Positions 572-28,912 of a DNA stretch of 33,501 bases are shown here, in pieces; within the stretch, counting starts at the first letter, position 1, and each line of letters starts with the position of its first letter. The stretch lies in IMG/VR virus record IMGVR_UViG_3300021247_000696, positions 1-33,501 of that record; one strand, written 5' to 3'. This DNA comes from a virus. The notes beneath the pieces are model-generated. The model worked only from the letters and a program-made list of their open reading frames with translations, made no database searches and was not told the DNA's origin. The position numbers and the translations under genes were made by a program.

Positions 572-3145
572 TTACGGGATGTGGTCAAAGAATGGAACCC
601 AAACAGTGCGGCCATTGACTCGCATCGCCAGATAAGAGGCCGTTTGAGCGCCGTACGTTCCGCCGTCTTCGCCAGTGGCGAGCTGATTGTCAGCACCGGG
701 GTGCACGTTGTAGCTTGAGGCATTAAAGCCTCCCGCTGCTTGAATGCTTCCACTAACGTACAGGCTCGTGTTGATGCCGGAGTTTACGGAAAGCGCACCG
801 TTTACGGTCATGCCGTTGTTGGTGGTGATTCCGTTGGCAGTCAGTGCGCCATCAATGTTGGCGCCATTATGGTTATAGTAGGTACCGTTCCAATAAGAGA
901 GACTTCCCGCATTGAGGAGGCTGGAACTTCCATTATTAGTACTGAGGACCAACTGACCTGTGCGGGCAACAGTACTTCCAGTAACGGCGAGAGAAACGCA
1001 TTCAGTACCGTAAAGGGAGCCGACTAGTCTTGAAGTCTCACCAGCGTACTGGAATCCGTAAGGAGCGTCCGAACCATAACCAAAGGTAAGGACATTGGCA
1101 GACAGATGAATTCTTGAACGGTCTGACCCGACATCGATAGCTCCCGAGGCGGTGATAGTTCCCGCAGTGATTGTACCTAAATCGGCACGAATTGCTGCCA
1201 AGTTAATGACGTCGATTTTTGCGGCCGTGACAGCGCCCGCGAGAATGTTGCTGGCGACAACCGAATCGGCGGCCAGCTTGCCCGCACGAACCTCTCCAGC
1301 AGCAATTTGGTCTGCCTTAATCGCACCGACCTGAATCATGCCGGTCGTAATCGAGTTGGCAGTAATTTTGTCGGAAGTGATCGCGTTTGCTGCAATCTTG
1401 TCAGAAGTAATTGCGTCGGTCGCAATCTTTCCCGCCGTGATAGCATTTGCTACGATCTTGTCCGCAGTGATGGCGTTGGCATTGATCTTGTCGGACGTAA
1501 TCGCATTGGTTGCAATCTCCGTGGCAGAGATTGCCCCAGCAGCAATTTTTCCTGCGACAACCGCATTTGCTGCGATCTTATCTGCCGAAACGGCGTTGCT
1601 GACGATCTTATCTGCCGTAATCGAATTGGCCGCGATCTTGTCGGACGTTACCGCGTTCGCGTAAATTTTATCTGCCGTGATCGCACCCGCCGCGATTTCT
1701 GTGGCCGATATTGCGGCAGCTTGAATCTTTCCTGCGGTAATAGAATTGGCCGCAATCTTATCCGTCGTGATTGCGTTGTTGCTGATTTGAGTCGTTACAA
1801 TTTGGCCGCTAATATCTGTGGCAGGAACCACTGATATCCAGCCTGTTGAACTGTAGCGATAAACTTTGCTGTCCGTCGTTAAGAAAACCTGACGTCCGAC
1901 AAAGTTACCAGTGGTCGGAAGAGCATCTGCAATTTCAACGGGTGTGATGCCTGAAGCAAACTTGGCCGTGGTGATCGCAGCGTTTGCGATCTGAGTCGAA
2001 ATGAGTTGCCCACTGATATCCGTAGAGGGGACCAGAGTAGTCCACCCAGTGGTGGAGCTGTAGCGATAGACTTTGTTGTCGGAGGTCAGAAAAACCTGAC
2101 GGCCCGCAAAGTTTCCTGTGGTCGGAAGCACGCCAGAAATTTCGATGGGCGTGATGCCCGCAGCAAATTTGGCGGTGTTAATCGAGGCGTCGGCAATCTG
2201 CGAGGAGACCACCTGACCGACCAAGTCGACCGTGGGCACTGAAGCAGTCCAAACCGTACCGTCGTAGCGGTAAAGTTTTTTGGTGGTAGTTAAGAACACC
2301 ATGCGACCCACAAAGTTGCCAGTGGTGGGGAAGTCGTCTAAAACTTCTACGGGTGTAAGTCCCTGAGCAAATTTGGCGGTGTTAATCAAACCGTCTGCAA
2401 GCTGAGACGTGATAAGTTGACCGAGAATATTCTCAGCAAGAATTTGAGTGGTCTGACTGAAGAGAGTCCAGAGAATCGGGCTGGTTCCAAGAACGATGAT
2501 GCCGGGCGTGTTCATCACGTACGCCGCGTTTCCGTTCACCGTGCCGTGCATGACGAACACGTACGTTCCCGTCGAAAGTTCAGCGCCTGTATCGGCATCT
2601 GCAGTACGTTGCCACGTCCCATTAGAACCCGTGCCCAGTACCTGAACATAATAGATGCCATTCTGACGGTTGTCGGACTGGTCTTTTACCAGTACTCGAT
2701 CGTTGGCAACAAGTGTCCTGCCATCCAGAGTGTTGGGGGCCGCGTTAAGGTTGATCGGGCCTGTGGTAGCAGCGACGACAGCATTCTTAATGTTAAGACC
2801 CGCCGACGCAGCGTCGACATAGCTCTTATTTGCGGCGTCCGTACCGTTTGTAGGGATTCCAAGGCCTGTGACTTGGGTAGCCGTTAGTACATTTACGGCG
2901 GCGTTGCCAGACGAGTCGCGCTTAATTAAGGCCGAGGCGACATTTGCATCCGTAGCGGTATCTAATTTACTTTTGTCCGCAGAGGAAAGGAGACCGTCGC
3001 TAACTGGTGTGGCTAGTGGGAGACCAGCCAAAAGAGCCGAAACTGTTCCGCGAACCGTGGTTCCACTCTGCACCAAAGGAACCAGCTCATTTCCGACAAT
3101 GGAAGATGCGGCTGGAAGATTTGAGATTGTTACGTTTTCGGCCAT
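572..3145 (-). CDS. Repeat-rich tail fibre protein
   Basis: An 857-residue fibre or adhesin. The N-terminus (MAENVTISNLPAASSIVGNE) resembles phage fibre attachment segments. Residues 100-230 hold the NKSYVDA / DRVLVKDQ module shared with the fibre gene at 1-530. Residues 239-445 contain three 69-residue repeats built on TPVEI...TTGNF.GRQVFLT..KVYRYSS. Residues 458-647 are nineteen decapeptide repeats (AITSDKIAAN type), expected to make a rigid beta-helical or trimeric shaft. The C-terminal 200 residues are Gly/Ser/Asn-rich and probably form the tip. No catalytic motif is seen. The start at 3145 has no Shine-Dalgarno site (GATACCCAC precedes ATG). It follows the 94-residue gene by 17 bases. 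Confidence 0.85.
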   Translation of the reverse strand: MAENVTISNLPAASSIVGNELVPLVQSGTTVRGTVSALLAGLPLATPVSDGLLSSADKSKLDTATDANVASALIKRDSSGNAAVNVLTATQVTGLGIPTNGTDAANKSYVDAASAGLNIKNAVVAATTGPINLNAAPNTLDGRTLVANDRVLVKDQSDNRQNGIYYVQVLGTGSNGTWQRTADADTGAELSTGTYVFVMHGTVNGNAAYVMNTPGIIVLGTSPILWTLFSQTTQILAENILGQLITSQLADGLINTAKFAQGLTPVEVLDDFPTTGNFVGRMVFLTTTKKLYRYDGTVWTASVPTVDLVGQVVSSQIADASINTAKFAAGITPIEISGVLPTTGNFAGRQVFLTSDNKVYRYSSTTGWTTLVPSTDISGQLISTQIANAAITTAKFASGITPVEIADALPTTGNFVGRQVFLTTDSKVYRYSSTGWISVVPATDISGQIVTTQISNNAITTDKIAANSITAGKIQAAAISATEIAAGAITADKIYANAVTSDKIAANSITADKIVSNAVSADKIAANAVVAGKIAAGAISATEIATNAITSDKINANAITADKIVANAITAGKIATDAITSDKIAANAITSDKITANSITTGMIQVGAIKADQIAAGEVRAGKLAADSVVASNILAGAVTAAKIDVINLAAIRADLGTITAGTITASGAIDVGSDRSRIHLSANVLTFGYGSDAPYGFQYAGETSRLVGSLYGTECVSLAVTGSTVARTGQLVLSTNNGSSSLLNAGSLSYWNGTYYNHNGANIDGALTANGITTNNGMTVNGALSVNSGINTSLYVSGSIQAAGGFNASSYNVHPGADNQLATGEDGGTYGAQTASYLAMRVNGRTVWVPFFDHIP
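1205..1774 (-). repeat. Nineteen 30-bp coding repeats (decapeptide shaft)
   Basis: These tandem 30-bp units encode ten-residue repeats of the type A-I-T-S/A-D-K-I-A-A-N in the 857-residue fibre (residues 458-647). Unit-to-unit variation is mostly at the DK and AN positions. It is a protein-level structural repeat, not a CRISPR or an origin. Confidence 0.85.
1811..2431 (-). repeat. Three 207-bp coding repeats in fibre
   Basis: Three tandem copies of a 69-residue unit (residues 239-307, 308-376, 377-445), each with a GQ..S/TQIA start, TTGNF.GR and a KVYRYSS-like stretch. The start of a fourth copy runs into the decapeptide repeats. Confidence 0.8.
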
Positions 3146-8378: not shown

Positions 8379-11300
8379 TTATTTTGCTTCTAGAGCAGCA
8401 AGACGTTGACGAACAGATTGCAATTCTGCAACTAGATTTGCGATTACCTCAGCCGACGACGCTTGCATGCCTTGGTAGATGGGCTTGCCATCAGCATCTA
8501 CGGCGTCTTTTTCCCCATGTACAGACGATGGAGATACCTCGGCAAACTCGTGAGCGAGGAAGCCAACGAACTTGCTGCCATCGGACTTCCATGTGCCCGT
8601 TTTAGGTTTGAGCGCGTCAATAAACACACCGCTGCCAGTAAGCGGTCCAGTAATGTCTTTGAGTCGGTAGTCGGAAGAAGTATTGTAATTAACAGCATTG
8701 CTTGTTCCAGAGCGAGTAATGCTACCAGTAACACCAGCGGAACTATTACGAAAAACGGCGTAATAAGCATTAGAGGTATCGGTGGTATCTTGAAGGTCTA
8801 TGCCGTGATAACTGCTGCCATTGAAGTAGGCATCAAAAGCACCTGCGTTAGTTCCGGTGCTACCAAAAGCCTTAATTTGTGCGCTACCTGTGATGTTGCC
8901 ATTGTAATCAATGGTCATCGCGCTGTTCGTGATGCCGCTCGCGTAGCTATTCGACGTGCCAAATACCAAGTAGGAACCAGAGTTGCTGTAATAAGCACCA
9001 ATGCGTGCGCGTGGAGCCTGCGTGCTGGCCGAGAAATCAATGCCAGAATAGTCGTTGGTCGAGGTCGAGCCGGTAATACGAACGCCGAGAGCGGTGCTTC
9101 CGGTGAAGCTGGTGACGCTGGCTGGGCCGACGACTTCGAGTTTTGTGGCAGGACTCGTCGTGCCAATGCCGACGTTGCCAGAGGTATCTATCGTCATTAA
9201 CGTAACAGGCGTCGTGTAAGCATCATTTACTTTTTCAAATGACCACGCACCAGAAGTAGTGCCACCGAAACGCAACCATTTCTGATTTACCCCCGCCGCG
9301 CTGTTGTAAAGATTTGCGTAGGTTGATGAGCCAGAAGTGATGACGCTGTATCCAACGACGTTCAGCTTCTCGCCAAGGTCAGGCGAAGAAGAAATGGCCG
9401 TTGCGCCTAGGATCGTCTTTCCCGTCGCACTCAACGTCCCAGTAACGGCGAGGCCGGTGGAGGAAAACTTGCCAATCGTAGTGCCAGCAACGTCAATCAG
9501 CGAGTTGGTTTGCGAGCGAAGAATAATGTCGCCAGCAACCGAACCGCTACTTCCTTGACCCGCCGTTTGCGCGATACCAACTAGCCCTTGAAACGTGCCA
9601 GACTTATCGAAACGGATGAAGGCATTGCCGGTTCCGTTGTCGATGTTTAGGATTTCATTCGTGGCGGTCGTGCCAATCGAACCCTTGCCAGTGGAACTCA
9701 ACGTCCCAGTAACGGCGAGTCCGGTGGAGGAGATGGTACCAACCGTTGAACTACCTATGTTAAGATAGATTTGACCCGAAGAAGTTGTTCCAGTGCCGGT
9801 TTGAATTGTTATAGTTCCGGCTGCTCCGCTTGAAGTATTGCCTGTGCGTAAAGTTAGGTTTCCGGGAGTTCCGGTTGTGACATCGCCAGTATAGATAGCT
9901 AGAGCACCACTATTTCCAGTTAAGACAGCTCCAGTTAAAAAAGATGCGTTACCACTATTTCCAGTTGTAGCGCCTGCACTGCCTATTGAAACGTCACCAG
10001 TATTTCCGACAGTTCCAGCACTACCGCTAGCAAGTGAAACAGAGCCACTAGTTGTAGAACTAGATACAGTTAGTGCTAACGTAGCTCCCCCAACGGTGCC
10101 CGAACTAATCGTTGAAACAGTACCACCTGAAATCATAACAGCTCCACCGAAACCGGTTAAACTTGAGCCATCATTGGTAGCATCACCAGCGGTTATCTGA
10201 ATGGTGGAACCGTTGTAATAAGTAGCTCCAGCATCCGCAGCAGCCCTACCACCCTTTAACAAGATTCCGCCTCGGCGGCGAGCATTTGCAAGAGTAAATG
10301 CCGTCCACGGAGTAGTGCTACCGTAACCAATAATCTCAATGGTTCCGTTGCCACCACTTGCCCCAGCTTGACCCGTTCCCGAAGAACCTTGGATAAGCAG
10401 TTTAGAACCCGCACCCGCTCCGTTATTAGGAGAGGTTAGATAGCCTGTGAAAGTTGAATTACCGCTGGCACTTAGGCTTGTGAATGCACCAGAGCCTTGG
10501 GTTGTGAGACCGATGGACGTGAAGTTGCCTGCGGCTGGAGTTGTGACGCCGATTGTTCCGCCCTCATAATAAATAATCGCAGAAGCGTCCGGGAGTGTAA
10601 ATGTGCGCTCTGTCGTTGTGGGGCCAGAAAATTTGGTGAAGCCGTTACCCGTTCCGCCGTAGGTCGAGGCAATGATTTGGGTGAGTGCAGCGGTGCCGTC
10701 AAAGTTGTTGCCGTAGATCGCTCGACTGCTTTGAAGCGCCGTAGCCGTGCCTGCGTTGCCCGTGATATTTGTCTGGTCGCCCGTGTTGGTTCCGCTGATC
10801 GAGCTAGTGCCCGTAACTGCCAGCGTAGGCGTCGAGCTACCGGACAACACAACCGAGTTGACCGACGTCGGCGTAATCGCTCCGAGGGTCAAACTGATCG
10901 CCGGCGTCGAAGAAGGGTTGGCGACGGTACCGCTGATGCCGTTTGCCGTCGTAACCGACACGGTTGTGACGCTGCCGCCAGCCGAGGTAGATGCAAGCGT
11001 TCCGCCGACAAAAGTCAGGCCGCTGCCAACAGTGACGTTGTTGAAGCCGCCCGCGCCATCGCCGTAGAAAATAGAGGTGCCCGTTGTTGCAGGAGCGTAA
11101 TCGACTCCAGACACTGCGATCGAGGGGGCGCCTGTGCCGGTCGTATTTTTAAGGATACCTGTAGCCAGCGCTGCTAAGGAGGTGCCATTAAGTTTGGTGA
11201 CCGTGGCGGTGAGGGTTCCAGTGCTGCCCGAAGCCGTCACATCGCCCGTAATCGAAATTGTCTGGTCGCCCGTGTTGGTGCCGCTGACGGTGGCCGTAGC

Positions 11301-14165
11301 CGAAGCAGTCAGAGTAGCGCCGTCAGCGATGGTCAGCGTCGAGCCTGTAGCCGGAGCTGTGATCGTGACCTTATTAACGCTGGTGGCCGAAGCAACCCCG
11401 AGTGTCGGGGTTGTCATCACCGGCGAGGTCAGCGTTTTGTTCGTCAACGTATCCGTCGTAGCACGACCCACCAGAGTATCCGTCTGGTTGGGGAGCGTCA
11501 ACGTGCCGGTGTTAATGATAGAGGAGATCGTTGGCGTCGTCAGCGTCACTGAGGCGAGGGTGCCGCCAGAGATTGAGACGCTGGACGAATTCTGCACTGC
11601 CATTGTGCCCAATCCGAGATTGGTGCGGGCGGAAGAAACGGAATCTAAGTCGCTGAGATTATTAGCGCGATAAAGGTAGGTCGTGTCTTGGCCGGTTGCG
11701 GTGACGCCGAGATTTGTGCGAGACGTAGAAGCAGACGCTACGTCGCTAAGATTGTTGGCCGAGAGAAGAGCACCAGAGGACGAAGTGAGGGCGCCAAGAT
11801 TGATTGTCCACGCGCTATAGGTACCCGAACCGGTATGCGACACCGAATTAACCACCATCACGCCTGTCGAGCTGTTGTACGAGACAACGTCGCAGTGCAT
11901 GTGGTTATCAAAATCGTAAACTATCGTGACCGTCTGTGTAGCGATGTACGATAAACCAGTCGCAACAACAAACGTTTTGTTGTTTCCGTTGTCGATCGTG
12001 TTGGTGCTGGTAGAAGTCGTGAGATACTTATCACCGCGATTGGATTGAACGTATTGCGTCGTCGCAATCTGAGTCGTGTTCGTACCGTTAGCCGCCGTCG
12101 GTGCGAGTGGCGTACCCGTAAGTGTAGGCGAATCGGACAAAACAGTAGACCCTGTGCCCGTCGAAGTCGTAGCTCCTGTACCGCCGTGAGTGACGGCCAA
12201 CGTACCCGTGACACCCGTACTCAACGGGAGACCCGTGGCATTTGTCAAAGTGATAGCCGAAGGCGTATCAAGATTGGGTGTTACTAACGAGGGGGAATTG
12301 GAAAACACCAGATCGCCTGATCCAGTTTCGTCTGTCACCATTGAGGACAGATTGGCGCTGGTTGGGCTCTGCAAGAACGACGCGACGCCTATTCCAAGAC
12401 CCGTGACGCCCGTGATAGCGACGTTGGTCGCAGTAGCGGCGTTGCCCGTGGTGTTCTGATTAAGCGTCGGGAAGTCGGCGGCAACCGCGATGCTAGGGAC
12501 GCCAGTACCCGTAGTGTTTTTGAGGATACCCGTCGCAAGCGTCGCTAAAGCCTGACCGTTGATCTTGGTGACAGTAGCCGTTAAAGTATTTTCCGAACCC
12601 GCTGCTGTAACGTCGCCCGTGATCGAGATCGTCTGGTCGCCCGTGTTGGTGCCCGAAGAAGTGCCGCTAAAAGTACCGTTTTGAGTAGCCAGCGTGCCCA
12701 GACCTAAGTTAGTGCGAGCATCTGCCGCGTTAGACGCGCCGGTACCGCCGTCGGCAATCGCCAAGTCTGTGATGCCAATAATTGAGCCGCCCGTAATGGA
12801 GACGTTGCTGGCAGATTGAGTGGCGATGCTGCCCAATCCCAGATTAGCGCGCGCATCTACGGCCGTTGAAGCTCCTGTGCCGCCATCCGAGATGGCAAGA
12901 TCGGTGATACCTGTAATGACGCCACCAGTGATAGTGACGTTGTTCGCATTCTCTACCGCCATCGTCCCGAGACCCGTGATATCTGCGACAGGGATCGTTG
13001 TGGAGGCCGTTAATGGGTTTGTGCCAGAACCTTTGACGTATCCGGTCAAAGAAGAGGTGCCCGTACCGCCGTCTGCGACAGCAAGGTCAGTGATGCCCGT
13101 AACCGAGCCACCGGTGATTGATACGTTATCAGAATTTTGGAGGGACAGGGTGCCCAAACCTAAATTACTGCGGGCGCCGCTTGCAGTTGAGGCTCCCGTA
13201 CCGCCGTCGGCAATGGCAAGGTCGGTAATGCCGGTGATTGAGCCGCCTGTAATTGCGACGTTGTTCGCATTTTGTGCGGCCATCGTCCCGGCGCCTGTAA
13301 TGTCGCTAAATGGGATTGTGGTCGAAACAACAAGTGATCCAACCCCATCAACTGTTTTAACGTAGCCGTTGGTAGCCAAGGCCGAGAAACTTGGCGTTCC
13401 GTTTGAGGAAATGGCAAAACGGTTTACGCCAGCGGTAACATCGTCGAAAAGAAAATTTGTCCCAGACGTAGCAATTCCGTACGAATGCGAGGAACTGTTT
13501 AGGACAAACTGATAGTTGCCATCTGTGCGGGTGGCAATGACTCCCTTAAAGGTTGGAGTGCTTGTCGTCGCGATATCTTGCGGAGTAGAAAGTGTAACAC
13601 TTCCCGTGGAGGCCGAGGCAATGATTTGATTTACCGTGCCCTGTATCGAAGTAACAACATTCGTGAAATCAGAAGAAATTGAAATCGTTCCAGAGCCAGA
13701 AGAAATGACAATTCCCGAGCCTGCCGTAAGAGTGTTTAAATTAAAGCCTGTGCCCGTTCCGATAAGAAGTTGACCGGCCGACGGTGTCGAAGACAGGCCG
13801 CTACCACCGTGTTGAACGGTCACAACTCCTACGACGTTATCTGAGGTTCCTGAAACATTTCCTGTTACGTTACCGACAACATTGCCAACGACGTTTCCCG
13901 TTAGAGGTCCTGAAAAACTCGAAGCAGTAATAGGTCCGATTGAATCGGACCAGTATGTCGAACTGCCGTTGGTGCTAAGAACCTTGCCTACATTGCCAGC
14001 TTGACTGGGGAATGCGGCGTTCTCTAATGAAATCCACGTCGCGTCCCCACGTAAAAAATACGATTCGTTGCCTGCGGCTGGCGAAGGCACCAAACCCATC
14101 AGGCCGTTCTCAGTAGCTGAGGCCGGACTGAAAGGCTGCGGAGAAAGGAAGAGTGGATTTGACAT
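8379..14165 (-). CDS. Giant tail fibre with S74 chaperone domain
   Basis: A 1928-residue fibre. Most of the length is made of phage-fibre repeats: NVSITGGSITGITDLAIADG with GGTGASTA..AR.NLGLG, and GTNTGDQTISITGDVTA with ILKNTTGTG.PSIAVA. The C-terminal ~110 residues (SDYRLKDITGPL, KFVGFLAHE, ending LQSVRQRLAALEAK) match the intramolecular chaperone/peptidase S74 domain that trimerises fibres and then cuts itself off after the Ser of SDYRLK-type sites. The Ser and Lys are present. Probably the main receptor-binding fibre. The start at 14165 follows the 147-residue gene by eight bases and has no Shine-Dalgarno site. Confidence 0.93.
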   Translation of the reverse strand: MSNPLFLSPQPFSPASATENGLMGLVPSPAAGNESYFLRGDATWISLENAAFPSQAGNVGKVLSTNGSSTYWSDSIGPITASSFSGPLTGNVVGNVVGNVTGNVSGTSDNVVGVVTVQHGGSGLSSTPSAGQLLIGTGTGFNLNTLTAGSGIVISSGSGTISISSDFTNVVTSIQGTVNQIIASASTGSVTLSTPQDIATTSTPTFKGVIATRTDGNYQFVLNSSSHSYGIATSGTNFLFDDVTAGVNRFAISSNGTPSFSALATNGYVKTVDGVGSLVVSTTIPFSDITGAGTMAAQNANNVAITGGSITGITDLAIADGGTGASTASGARSNLGLGTLSLQNSDNVSITGGSVTGITDLAVADGGTGTSSLTGYVKGSGTNPLTASTTIPVADITGLGTMAVENANNVTITGGVITGITDLAISDGGTGASTAVDARANLGLGSIATQSASNVSITGGSIIGITDLAIADGGTGASNAADARTNLGLGTLATQNGTFSGTSSGTNTGDQTISITGDVTAAGSENTLTATVTKINGQALATLATGILKNTTGTGVPSIAVAADFPTLNQNTTGNAATATNVAITGVTGLGIGVASFLQSPTSANLSSMVTDETGSGDLVFSNSPSLVTPNLDTPSAITLTNATGLPLSTGVTGTLAVTHGGTGATTSTGTGSTVLSDSPTLTGTPLAPTAANGTNTTQIATTQYVQSNRGDKYLTTSTSTNTIDNGNNKTFVVATGLSYIATQTVTIVYDFDNHMHCDVVSYNSSTGVMVVNSVSHTGSGTYSAWTINLGALTSSSGALLSANNLSDVASASTSRTNLGVTATGQDTTYLYRANNLSDLDSVSSARTNLGLGTMAVQNSSSVSISGGTLASVTLTTPTISSIINTGTLTLPNQTDTLVGRATTDTLTNKTLTSPVMTTPTLGVASATSVNKVTITAPATGSTLTIADGATLTASATATVSGTNTGDQTISITGDVTASGSTGTLTATVTKLNGTSLAALATGILKNTTGTGAPSIAVSGVDYAPATTGTSIFYGDGAGGFNNVTVGSGLTFVGGTLASTSAGGSVTTVSVTTANGISGTVANPSSTPAISLTLGAITPTSVNSVVLSGSSTPTLAVTGTSSISGTNTGDQTNITGNAGTATALQSSRAIYGNNFDGTAALTQIIASTYGGTGNGFTKFSGPTTTERTFTLPDASAIIYYEGGTIGVTTPAAGNFTSIGLTTQGSGAFTSLSASGNSTFTGYLTSPNNGAGAGSKLLIQGSSGTGQAGASGGNGTIEIIGYGSTTPWTAFTLANARRRGGILLKGGRAAADAGATYYNGSTIQITAGDATNDGSSLTGFGGAVMISGGTVSTISSGTVGGATLALTVSSSTTSGSVSLASGSAGTVGNTGDVSIGSAGATTGNSGNASFLTGAVLTGNSGALAIYTGDVTTGTPGNLTLRTGNTSSGAAGTITIQTGTGTTSSGQIYLNIGSSTVGTISSTGLAVTGTLSSTGKGSIGTTATNEILNIDNGTGNAFIRFDKSGTFQGLVGIAQTAGQGSSGSVAGDIILRSQTNSLIDVAGTTIGKFSSTGLAVTGTLSATGKTILGATAISSSPDLGEKLNVVGYSVITSGSSTYANLYNSAAGVNQKWLRFGGTTSGAWSFEKVNDAYTTPVTLMTIDTSGNVGIGTTSPATKLEVVGPASVTSFTGSTALGVRITGSTSTNDYSGIDFSASTQAPRARIGAYYSNSGSYLVFGTSNSYASGITNSAMTIDYNGNITGSAQIKAFGSTGTNAGAFDAYFNGSSYHGIDLQDTTDTSNAYYAVFRNSSAGVTGSITRSGTSNAVNYNTSSDYRLKDITGPLTGSGVFIDALKPKTGTWKSDGSKFVGFLAHEFAEVSPSSVHGEKDAVDADGKPIYQGMQASSAEVIANLVAELQSVRQRLAALEAK

Positions 14166-27987: not shown

Positions 27988-28346
27988 TGGTGGAGCTGGC
28001 GGGAGTCGAACCCGCGTGTTCTATGCGTCTGCCTCTGCGTTGACATGCTTAATCGGGTTCTGGAAGAACCTCCACCATTCGGTAAGCTAGTGCCGAAACT
28101 ATTGATTTCTGAATCCGCAGTTTTCTAACTCTGAGCCGTAATTAAACGGCAACAGCGACGCGAGCGGAGCGGGCCGACGGCGCGTACGCAACCGATTGAG
28201 CGGGAGCGAACGACGTGTCGGAGAAGGCCACAAACGTCTGAGCAATGTTGGTATTGTCTGTTATGGTTTGCCGCGCGTTTGCGACGGTGCGGCGTTGTCG
28301 GCATGAAACTTCGGCTTCGACATAGGATCGAATCCAGTACAGCCCC
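27988..28346 (-). ncRNA. ssrA: Transfer-messenger RNA (tmRNA)
   Basis: A 359-base tmRNA. The 5' end GGGGCTGTACTGGATTCGA and 3' end GCGGGTTCGACTCCCGCCAG...CACCA are the standard tRNA-like domain, and GGGGCTG pairs with CAGCTCC to form the acceptor stem; CCA is encoded. A pseudoknot is predicted from CGAC/GTCG and GCCGC/GCGGC (28270-28300). The resume codon is expected 11 bases after it (GAC at 28256-28258), as in E. coli. The tag frame then runs to TAA at 28142-28144 and would encode 38 residues, starting DNTNIAQTFV and ending SARVAVAV. tmRNA frees stalled ribosomes and tags the stalled peptide for proteolysis. Confidence 0.93.
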
Positions 28347-28368
28347 AAAATTATGAAAGAACGAAAAT

Positions 28369-28442
28369 TGGATGCAGGGGCTGGAATTGAACCAACAGCT
28401 CCGCGTTATGAGCGCGACGAGTTACCGTTACTCTACCCGGCA
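28369..28442 (-). tRNA. tRNA-Met (anticodon CAT)
   Basis: A 74-base cloverleaf with encoded CCA: acceptor TGCCGGG/CCCTGCA with one C-T mismatch, D arm GAG...CTC, anticodon stem TCGCG/CGCGG with loop CTCATAA, T arm GTTGGTTCAATTCCAGC. CAT could serve Met or, if modified, Ile. The weak 5' acceptor pairing argues for elongator or modified use, not for a standard initiator. Confidence 0.85.
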
Positions 28443-28444
28443 GG

Positions 28445-28476
28445 AAAAAAAATTGGAAGGGTTAATGATTACCTTC
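28445..28476 (-). terminator. Possible terminator before tRNA-Met
   Basis: Minus strand GAAGG...CCTTC hairpin (28456-28476) then CAATTTTTTTT. It closes the structured RNA C upstream of tRNA-Met. The stem is only five to six base pairs, so read-through into the tRNA-Met/tmRNA part is likely. Confidence 0.5.
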
Positions 28477-28698
28477 ATCTAACAGTGGTGCTCTCGGTTA
28501 TTCAGTCATATGGTGCCGTCGCACCTTAATAGTCCGCTTGTCATTGTATTTCAGGCTTACAGGACTATACCTCTGGTGACTTCGGTTGGCCGACCTAAGT
28601 TTCAGCGTAGTACCTTACCTACTTACACACTGTAGAACTGAGTGATGTTCTTCGCATCACCCATGCGTTAGCCCCATTAGAAAGGCTTGTTCCGCCAC
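28477..28698 (-). ncRNA. Unrecognised structured RNA C
   Basis: No protein frame. The RNA would start GTGGCGGAACAAGCC right after the spacer element and has several stable hairpins: GTGATG/CATCAC with a 7-base loop, TCGG/CCGA, ATAGTCC/GGACTAT spanning a 26-base loop, and GGTGC GACG GCACC. I recognise no known family. A covariance search against large ornate phage RNAs is the right test. Confidence 0.45.
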
Positions 28699-28725
28699 AA
28701 AAATTAAAAAAGAACAAAAGTTATC
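28699..28725 (-). repeat. RNA-island spacer element (copy 2)
   Basis: The minus strand has CTTTTGTTCTTTTTTAATTT directly before RNA C, one of five similar spacers in the island (others near 28347-28368, 28889-28912, 29058-29074, 29681-29699). The shared core is GTTCTTT followed by a T/A-rich stretch just upstream of the 5' end of the next RNA. Confidence 0.6.
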
Positions 28726-28888
28726 CACCGGCATTTCAGTGCCCAAACGCACATTGTAAGCCGATGATTTGGTTAGTTATTGGCGCGGGTGGAAATTTAC
28801 CACTATAAGACAGGTTGTACCGGTCGTTAATCGGTTTTCTCTGATTTATTAGATCAGCGATTGTACTCCAATCTCCCCTGTACGCCCC
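28726..28888 (-). ncRNA. Unrecognised structured RNA B
   Basis: Begins GGGGCGTACAGGGG after the spacer, as the tmRNA begins GGGGCTG. Predicted helices nest well: GGCG with CGCC and ACAGG with CCTGT enclose GATTG/CAATC and CTGAT/ATCAG hairpins; then GTGG/CCAC; then CATCGGC/GCCGGTG with inner GTGC/GCAC. The multi-branched layout suggests a real RNA of about 160 bases of unknown family. Confidence 0.5.
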
Positions 28889-28912
28889 AAAAATTAGAAA
28901 GAACGAAAAACG
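28889..28912 (-). repeat. RNA-island spacer element (copy 3)
   Basis: Minus strand TTCGTTCTTTCTAATTTTT before RNA B, almost identical to the spacer between tRNA-Met and tmRNA at 28347-28368 (CGTTCTTTCATAATTTT). Confidence 0.65.

Follow-up and report, generated by a model that had tools for sequence, protein, structure and literature searches.

The 33.5-kb uncultivated-virus record analysed here (G000; its full 33,501 nt are the window) has tailed-phage genes and carries a real one-piece tmRNA (ssrA) gene, most likely of ordinary mechanism and a long-tag variant within a group of phage tmRNAs that has been little described. We consider it quite probable that this gene is functional and performs normal trans-translation with host factors, adding alanine and a 38-residue tag that ends in AVAV. 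The first-pass annotation had claimed a phage tmRNA at 27988-28346, and cmscan bore this out: RF00023 matched that interval on the minus strand over the full model (1-374) with 89.0 bits, against a gathering score of 47 (Table 1). The middle of the alignment is weak, with low posteriors, and the PK2-PK4 region, where hairpins A and B are seen, aligns poorly. ARAGORN called three tRNAs only in the window and left the tmRNA uncalled. The unconstrained fold was weakly more stable than that of shuffled sequences (z -1.4), a test to which a pseudoknotted RNA is ill suited. A permuted two-piece gene was rejected, as the RF00023 match runs in normal order; the permuted-tmRNA model RF04321 scored 23.9 bits against a cut-off of 47.

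Table 1. Features of the tmRNA locus (window positions).
Feature	Position	Strand	Basis or remark
One-piece tmRNA (ssrA) gene, 359 nt, 3' CCA encoded	27988..28346	-	RF00023 match
5' acceptor strand GGGGCUG	28340..28346	-	pairs with 27998-27992 CAGCUCC, 7 bp including G3·U70
PK1, H-type: CGAC/GUCG + GCCGC/GCGGC	28270..28300	-	read from sequence
11-nt spacer AAACCAUAACA, PK1 to resume codon	28259..28269	-	sequence
Tag reading frame DNTNIAQTFVAFSDTSFAPAQSVAYAPSARSARVAVAV, 38 codons, GAC 28258-28256 to UAA 28144-28142	28142..28258	-	spacing, codon usage
Helix-5-like hairpin GCCGU-UUAAUU-ACGGC, stop codon in loop	28135..28150	-	chance 0.14, this sequence alone
Hairpin A UUCGG-(10 nt)-CCGAA, directly before UGGUGGAGG	28078..28097	-	stem-length test
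Conserved UGGUGGAGG	28069..28077	-	in 4/4 distinct tmRNAs found without using it
Hairpin B GGUUC-UUCCA-GAACC	28056..28070	-	stem-length test
3' part of helix 2, UUAAGCAUGU	28043..28052	-	RF00023 alignment
T-arm GCGGGUUCGACUCCCGC	27999..28015	-	RF00023 alignment
boxA-like leader (UUUUCGUUCUUUCAUAAUUUU) directly 5' of tmRNA	28347..28367	-	similar leader in L076, L078, L079
tRNA-Met(CAU) beside tmRNA	28369..28442	-	ARAGORN

The acceptor, T-arm and PK1 that had been read by eye are as described. An automatic check found 7/7 acceptor pairs, among them G3·U70, which is the alanine identity pair. Knots equivalent to PK1 can be drawn in the tmRNAs of three relatives (L076, L078 and L079), and these share with the window an A at -4 of the resume codon and a G-starting codon at the equivalent resume place. 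In E. coli, too, 11 nt separate PK1 from the resume codon. The earlier placement of the resume codon 11 bases past PK1 held, a clear PK1 being followed by the 11-nt spacer and then by GAC in the context AUAACA-GAC. A resume codon further downstream that would give a tag of ordinary length was looked for and not found; the PK1 spacing leads to GAC 28258-28256. Asp resume codons are rare, yet known (PMC1168896).

Read from GAC, the frame ends in SARVAVAV and then UAA, as had been predicted, and its hydrophobic AVAV C-terminus departs, again as predicted, from the usual ALAA-like ending. At 38 residues the tag is about four times the usual bacterial length, the commonest being 10 aa (PMC11915505). 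In a 2005 comparative study the mRNA-like ORFs of tmRNAs spanned 48-126 nt (PMC1168896), so that 38 residues are extreme and not unprecedented; the natural range of 8-35 residues given earlier is right in that tags are usually shorter and wrong as a hard limit. The claim that this is the only suitable frame was too strong, since from the resume place the other two frames run through 52 and 43 codons without a stop, and a 38-codon open frame arises with a chance of 0.35 in first-order Markov sequences of matched composition; tag length alone is thus not significant. Codon usage, scored with the codon frequencies of 15 genes of the same record, gave the tag frame a log-likelihood of +11.0, against -15.4 and -7.5 for the other frames and -4.8 ± 4.3 (sd) for the null. 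In known tmRNAs the stop codon lies in the helix 5 loop (PMC1168896). A stop-in-loop hairpin occurs in the window, in L078 (chance 0.21) and in L079 (chance 0.12), and by a strict criterion is absent from most of the wider phage set described below; hence it supports these three only. Taken together, the 38-codon frame rests on spacing, the AUAACA-GAC context, phage-like codon usage, the hydrophobic C-terminus and the stop-in-loop hairpin.

IMG/VR contains 71 relatives of the window capsid protein, and a profile adds more. An initial search of 50 capsid-relative records found RF00023 above cut-off in 4, a second search of another 53 found it in none, and a scan of capsid relatives with model R1 gave no further convincing members; a search of the phages collection with the terminase found no match, and the portal as query found no relatives. 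The capsids of the four tmRNA-bearing records are 75% and about 50-52% identical to that of the window. All four tmRNAs share the strand of their capsid gene. Three of them lie some 13-15 kb upstream of that gene, against 10 kb in the window; in G028 the tmRNA sits at the other contig end from the capsid gene. Among about 100 capsid-relative records, most of them fragments, tmRNAs are non-universal and scattered, since the capsid tree sets the tmRNA-bearing phages in two distant clades. The nearest such relative of the window, L079 (capsid 75% identical), has a tag of 20 aa, DNVIEVDFRATVPEQMKLAA. Two further tmRNAs, L077 and L078, are identical, with a 38-aa tag, DNTEPLGDSVSLFDMCARPAQPASPMQARTIPAHMILA, and L076 has one of 51 aa, AKNSVMEVIDAGMQLFDMCARPVRVAVTNGARAVKQSIRVQSGFVSVPSMA. 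The L076 and L078 tags resemble each other far more than shuffled sequences do (z 9.5) and have LFDMCARP in common, with two synonymous and zero amino-acid differences.

The surroundings of the gene are in part shared by these relatives. A boxA-like leader stands directly before the tmRNA in all three distinct ones (L076, L078, L079), and a tRNA-Met lies at most 1.5 kb from it in L076-L079. The leader appears to resemble the boxA antitermination element of rRNA leaders. In the window it recurs as TTTTCGTTCTTTC-AATTTT in three copies (28367-28342, 28720-28695 and 28909-28884, minus strand), and GGTTCTTTTA and CGTTCTTTCT occupy a comparable position in L173 and L180, of the wider set. Between tRNA-Gly and tRNA-Met lie two untranslated stretches, 28450-28695 and 28720-28890 (minus strand), each headed by a boxA-like leader. 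Neither contains an Rfam family above threshold; compared with shuffles, 28720-28890 folds somewhat better (z -2.1) and 28450-28695 no better. It is possible that both are unknown RNAs. A strong terminator-like hairpin, TGCTGCACCGACGTGCAGCA-TTTTTT (27747-27728, minus strand), about 240 nt downstream of the tmRNA, likely marks the end of the RNA cluster. Elsewhere on the minus strand, the products of 572-3145 (857 aa) and 8379-14165 (1928 aa) are very long, tail-fibre-like and, by their look, full of degenerate internal repeats.

The four distinct tmRNAs also share UGGUGGAGG shortly 5' of the AAGCATGT of helix 2. Used as a probe, this pattern retrieved 14, then 17 viral stretches, and so added 14 loci representing 12 distinct tmRNAs. 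Because the pattern served to collect this wider set, the presence of the element within it is circular; the contrast between viral and cellular sequences is not. Among 84,980 bacterial and archaeal genomes the strict pattern matched none. A relaxed pattern gave eight matches, of which one is a tmRNA, from a Flammeovirgaceae member (tag GENNYAMAA), and the others were not called as tmRNAs; within the class of that bacterium the element was found in 1 of the 12 tmRNAs scanned. This one tmRNA led us to reject GGTGGAGG as strictly virus-specific. In 16 phage tmRNAs one hairpin ends just 5' of UGGUGGAGG and the next starts with its last GG. Hairpin A has a mean stem of 6.0 bp (null 3.6; all of 5000 null means of 16 were at most 5.06) and hairpin B one of 5.75 bp (null 3.8; above all 5000 null means), and the stem sequences of both vary between phages. 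UGGUGGA and the mature 3' end, UCCACCA, are complementary; as both sides are nearly invariant, covariation gives a pairing between them no support.

The tags of the wider set are often long. Those of L173 (ANTNVSLFDAPPSLSEADEILARFGYVDREVAVAA, 35 aa), L178 (ANTNISLTEAPSLEQADEILARFGYSEKPVLATV, 34 aa), L180 (ANSFDMAPSVEQADAILAATGYVETELATA, 30 aa; ARAGORN calls this tmRNA too) and L184 (…PTADEADAILARFGWTEQREALAA, truncated at the contig end) belong to a single peptide family (z 9.7-19). One phage tag group contains …EADEILARFGY…, conserved as a peptide (pN/pS about 0.4). Between L173 and L178 synonymous change is 0.69, near saturation, and non-synonymous change 0.29 (pN/pS 0.42), so that the tag peptide, its body included, has been under purifying selection. 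A tblastn search with the L173 tag found unrelated endolysin genes only. The remaining one-piece tags are those of L175 (GNSLSNTTVEEFISTMVVAEREVAVA, 26 aa), L183 (AKTSNKVVSIFAKRPAQPALALAA, 24 aa), L176 (GNNVIRGNFGSNTVALVA, 18 aa) and L181 and L186 (16 aa each). The tmRNA of L186 reaches 454 nt because GTCAGTGAAGCTCCCGCGATGG… occurs two times downstream of the tag as a long direct repeat. Permuted (two-piece) genes in viral contigs (L174, L177, L179 and L185) carry UGGUGGAGG as well; their tags (ATNRDSAKSAKVLAFPAMPEALPMAA, ATAEPFALPMAA, ATNSVSAKSAKVLAFPARDAAALPMAA) measure 26 aa in L174/L177, 27 aa in L185 and 12 aa in L179. Blast of the tmRNAs against isolates matched mainly the shared T-arm and acceptor. 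The description of the tag as unusually long is supported, with 38 and 51 aa recurring in related phages and 24-35 aa in others, and 38 aa is not without precedent. The window tag itself has no similarity beyond chance to the other tags collected; by eye its DNTN… start and its …RVAVAV end suggest a likeness to some of them, which was set aside as not significant.

The analysis shows the gene, its fold elements, the evidence for the frame and the long-tagged relatives; the expression of the gene, its charging, tagging and the fate of tagged proteins we infer. Host AlaRS would charge the tmRNA via G3·U70, and host SmpB and EF-Tu would bring it to ribosomes stalled on non-stop mRNA. We found no SmpB gene in 15 records of such phages, several of them fragments, and this absence points to host SmpB as the partner. 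Translation would resume at GAC and add Ala and the 38-residue, mostly uncharged tag, and UAA in the helix-5 loop would end the tag and free the ribosome. The tag would be long through a lengthening, in this phage tmRNA set, of the stretch between resume codon and helix 5. Its hydrophobic AVAV end would probably still be a degron, perhaps weaker than ALAA. Engineered ssrA variants offer an analogy for weaker ClpXP recognition of altered C-termini, and by that analogy the AVAV, MILA, SMA and ATV ends of phage tags, which depart from ALAA and of which several end in V, may weaken recognition. Different behaviour of a long AVAV tag towards proteases, or a phage-specific signal within it, had been put forward as a hypothesis. 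It gains support from one tag group whose peptide conservation extends beyond the C-terminus, and from the V, MILA or SMA endings that several tags have in place of ALAA; the phage-specific signal is somewhat supported by the conserved tag family of other phages. The window tag has no close homologue. The long, partly conserved tags of other phages suggest that a phage version of the rescue tag has evolved. A stronger proposal is that these RNAs form a phage tmRNA class of their own, with UGGUGGA, complementary to the 3' end, between two hairpins, a long tag functional beyond its degron, and a fate chosen by the phage instead of host ClpXP; we regard it as unlikely, though deserving some weight. 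If true, that fate could be slower decay or a binding site, or could involve a different protease or adaptor.

Several points count against a functional, tagging tmRNA in the window: its tag has no similar tag, the L079 tag has 20 aa, an open frame of this length has a chance of 0.35, ARAGORN makes no call, the fold z is -1.4 and tmRNAs are scattered in the lineage. The first of these would fit an RNA that is only a ribosome-release device or an SmpB-titrating decoy, with an unconstrained tag open by chance in all frames. All three frames are indeed open for at least 38 codons, the window and L079 tags differ, and the tmRNA of phage DS6A, which amounts to scarcely more than the tRNA-like domain, is regarded as an inhibitor of the host's own tmRNA (PMC4131195; PMC11915505). 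Codon usage, however, strongly favours the tag frame, PK1, the resume spacing and the stop-in-loop hairpin are all kept, and some other phages' tags in the set are conserved as peptides, which makes this explanation distinctly improbable.

That the gene was captured from a host only recently, or is a host tmRNA in decay such as an attachment-site remnant, is very improbable. Remnants of ssrA can occur at the att sites of temperate phages, and the record of Escherichia phage LLS is annotated with a tmRNA pseudogene and attP; the window gene is nevertheless complete and adjoins phage tRNAs, the capsid relatives' tmRNAs have the same leader and UGGUGGAGG, and that element was found in 0/84,980 bacterial and archaeal genomes by the strict pattern and in one bacterial tmRNA among eight matches by the relaxed one. 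That the true resume codon lies elsewhere or in another frame, giving a different tag or one of ordinary length, is hardly credible. The weak middle of the Rfam alignment and the other open frames would allow it; against this stand the clear PK1 with its 11-nt spacing, the G-starting codon at the equivalent place in L076, L078 and L079, the codon usage that disfavours the other frames, and an in-frame stop that does not change with the choice among nearby codons of the frame.

On the question of why some phages carry a tmRNA, the tag itself becomes testable as the phage-specific part if phage tags prove to be long, to lack an ALAA end and to be maintained as peptides. ARAGORN misses the window tmRNA and most one-piece relatives, so counts of this type of phage tmRNA are probably too low.

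Compared with the bacterial one-piece tmRNA (RF00023; E. coli ssrA), the window RNA has the same part order, G3·U70 acceptor, T-arm, PK1, 11-nt resume spacing, helix-5-loop stop codon and TAAGCATGT of helix 2. It differs in its tag (38 aa against about 10), its resume codon (Asp instead of Ala), its AVAV instead of ALAA end, and a PK2-PK4 region that seems reduced to hairpins around UGGUGGAGG. The permuted tmRNAs (RF04321/RF01849) meet it in the viral L174, L177, L179 and L185, which share its UGGUGGAGG, whereas the window gene is unpermuted. The Odontella sinensis chloroplast tmRNA, a plastid gene, has an mRNA-like ORF of 126 nt (PMC1168896) and resembles it in having a very long tag region. 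Isolated phages have tags of either kind, ordinary and long. Streptomyces phage tmRNAs (for example Targaryen, ANSKFAFALAA, and others like it) are likewise phage-borne and one-piece, but have tags of ordinary length with an ALAA end. That phage tmRNAs can be active is indicated by phage Wildcat, whose tmRNA is its most expressed lytic gene (PMC7474061). Mycobacteriophage tmRNAs, for example that of Phabba, lack the GGUGGAGG element and have tags unrelated in sequence; like that of the window, they lie beside tRNAs and have a long tag ending in V, which in Phabba has 26 aa, ANDNDATVTEADFAEIEAFANDSVLV, and ends in SVLV.
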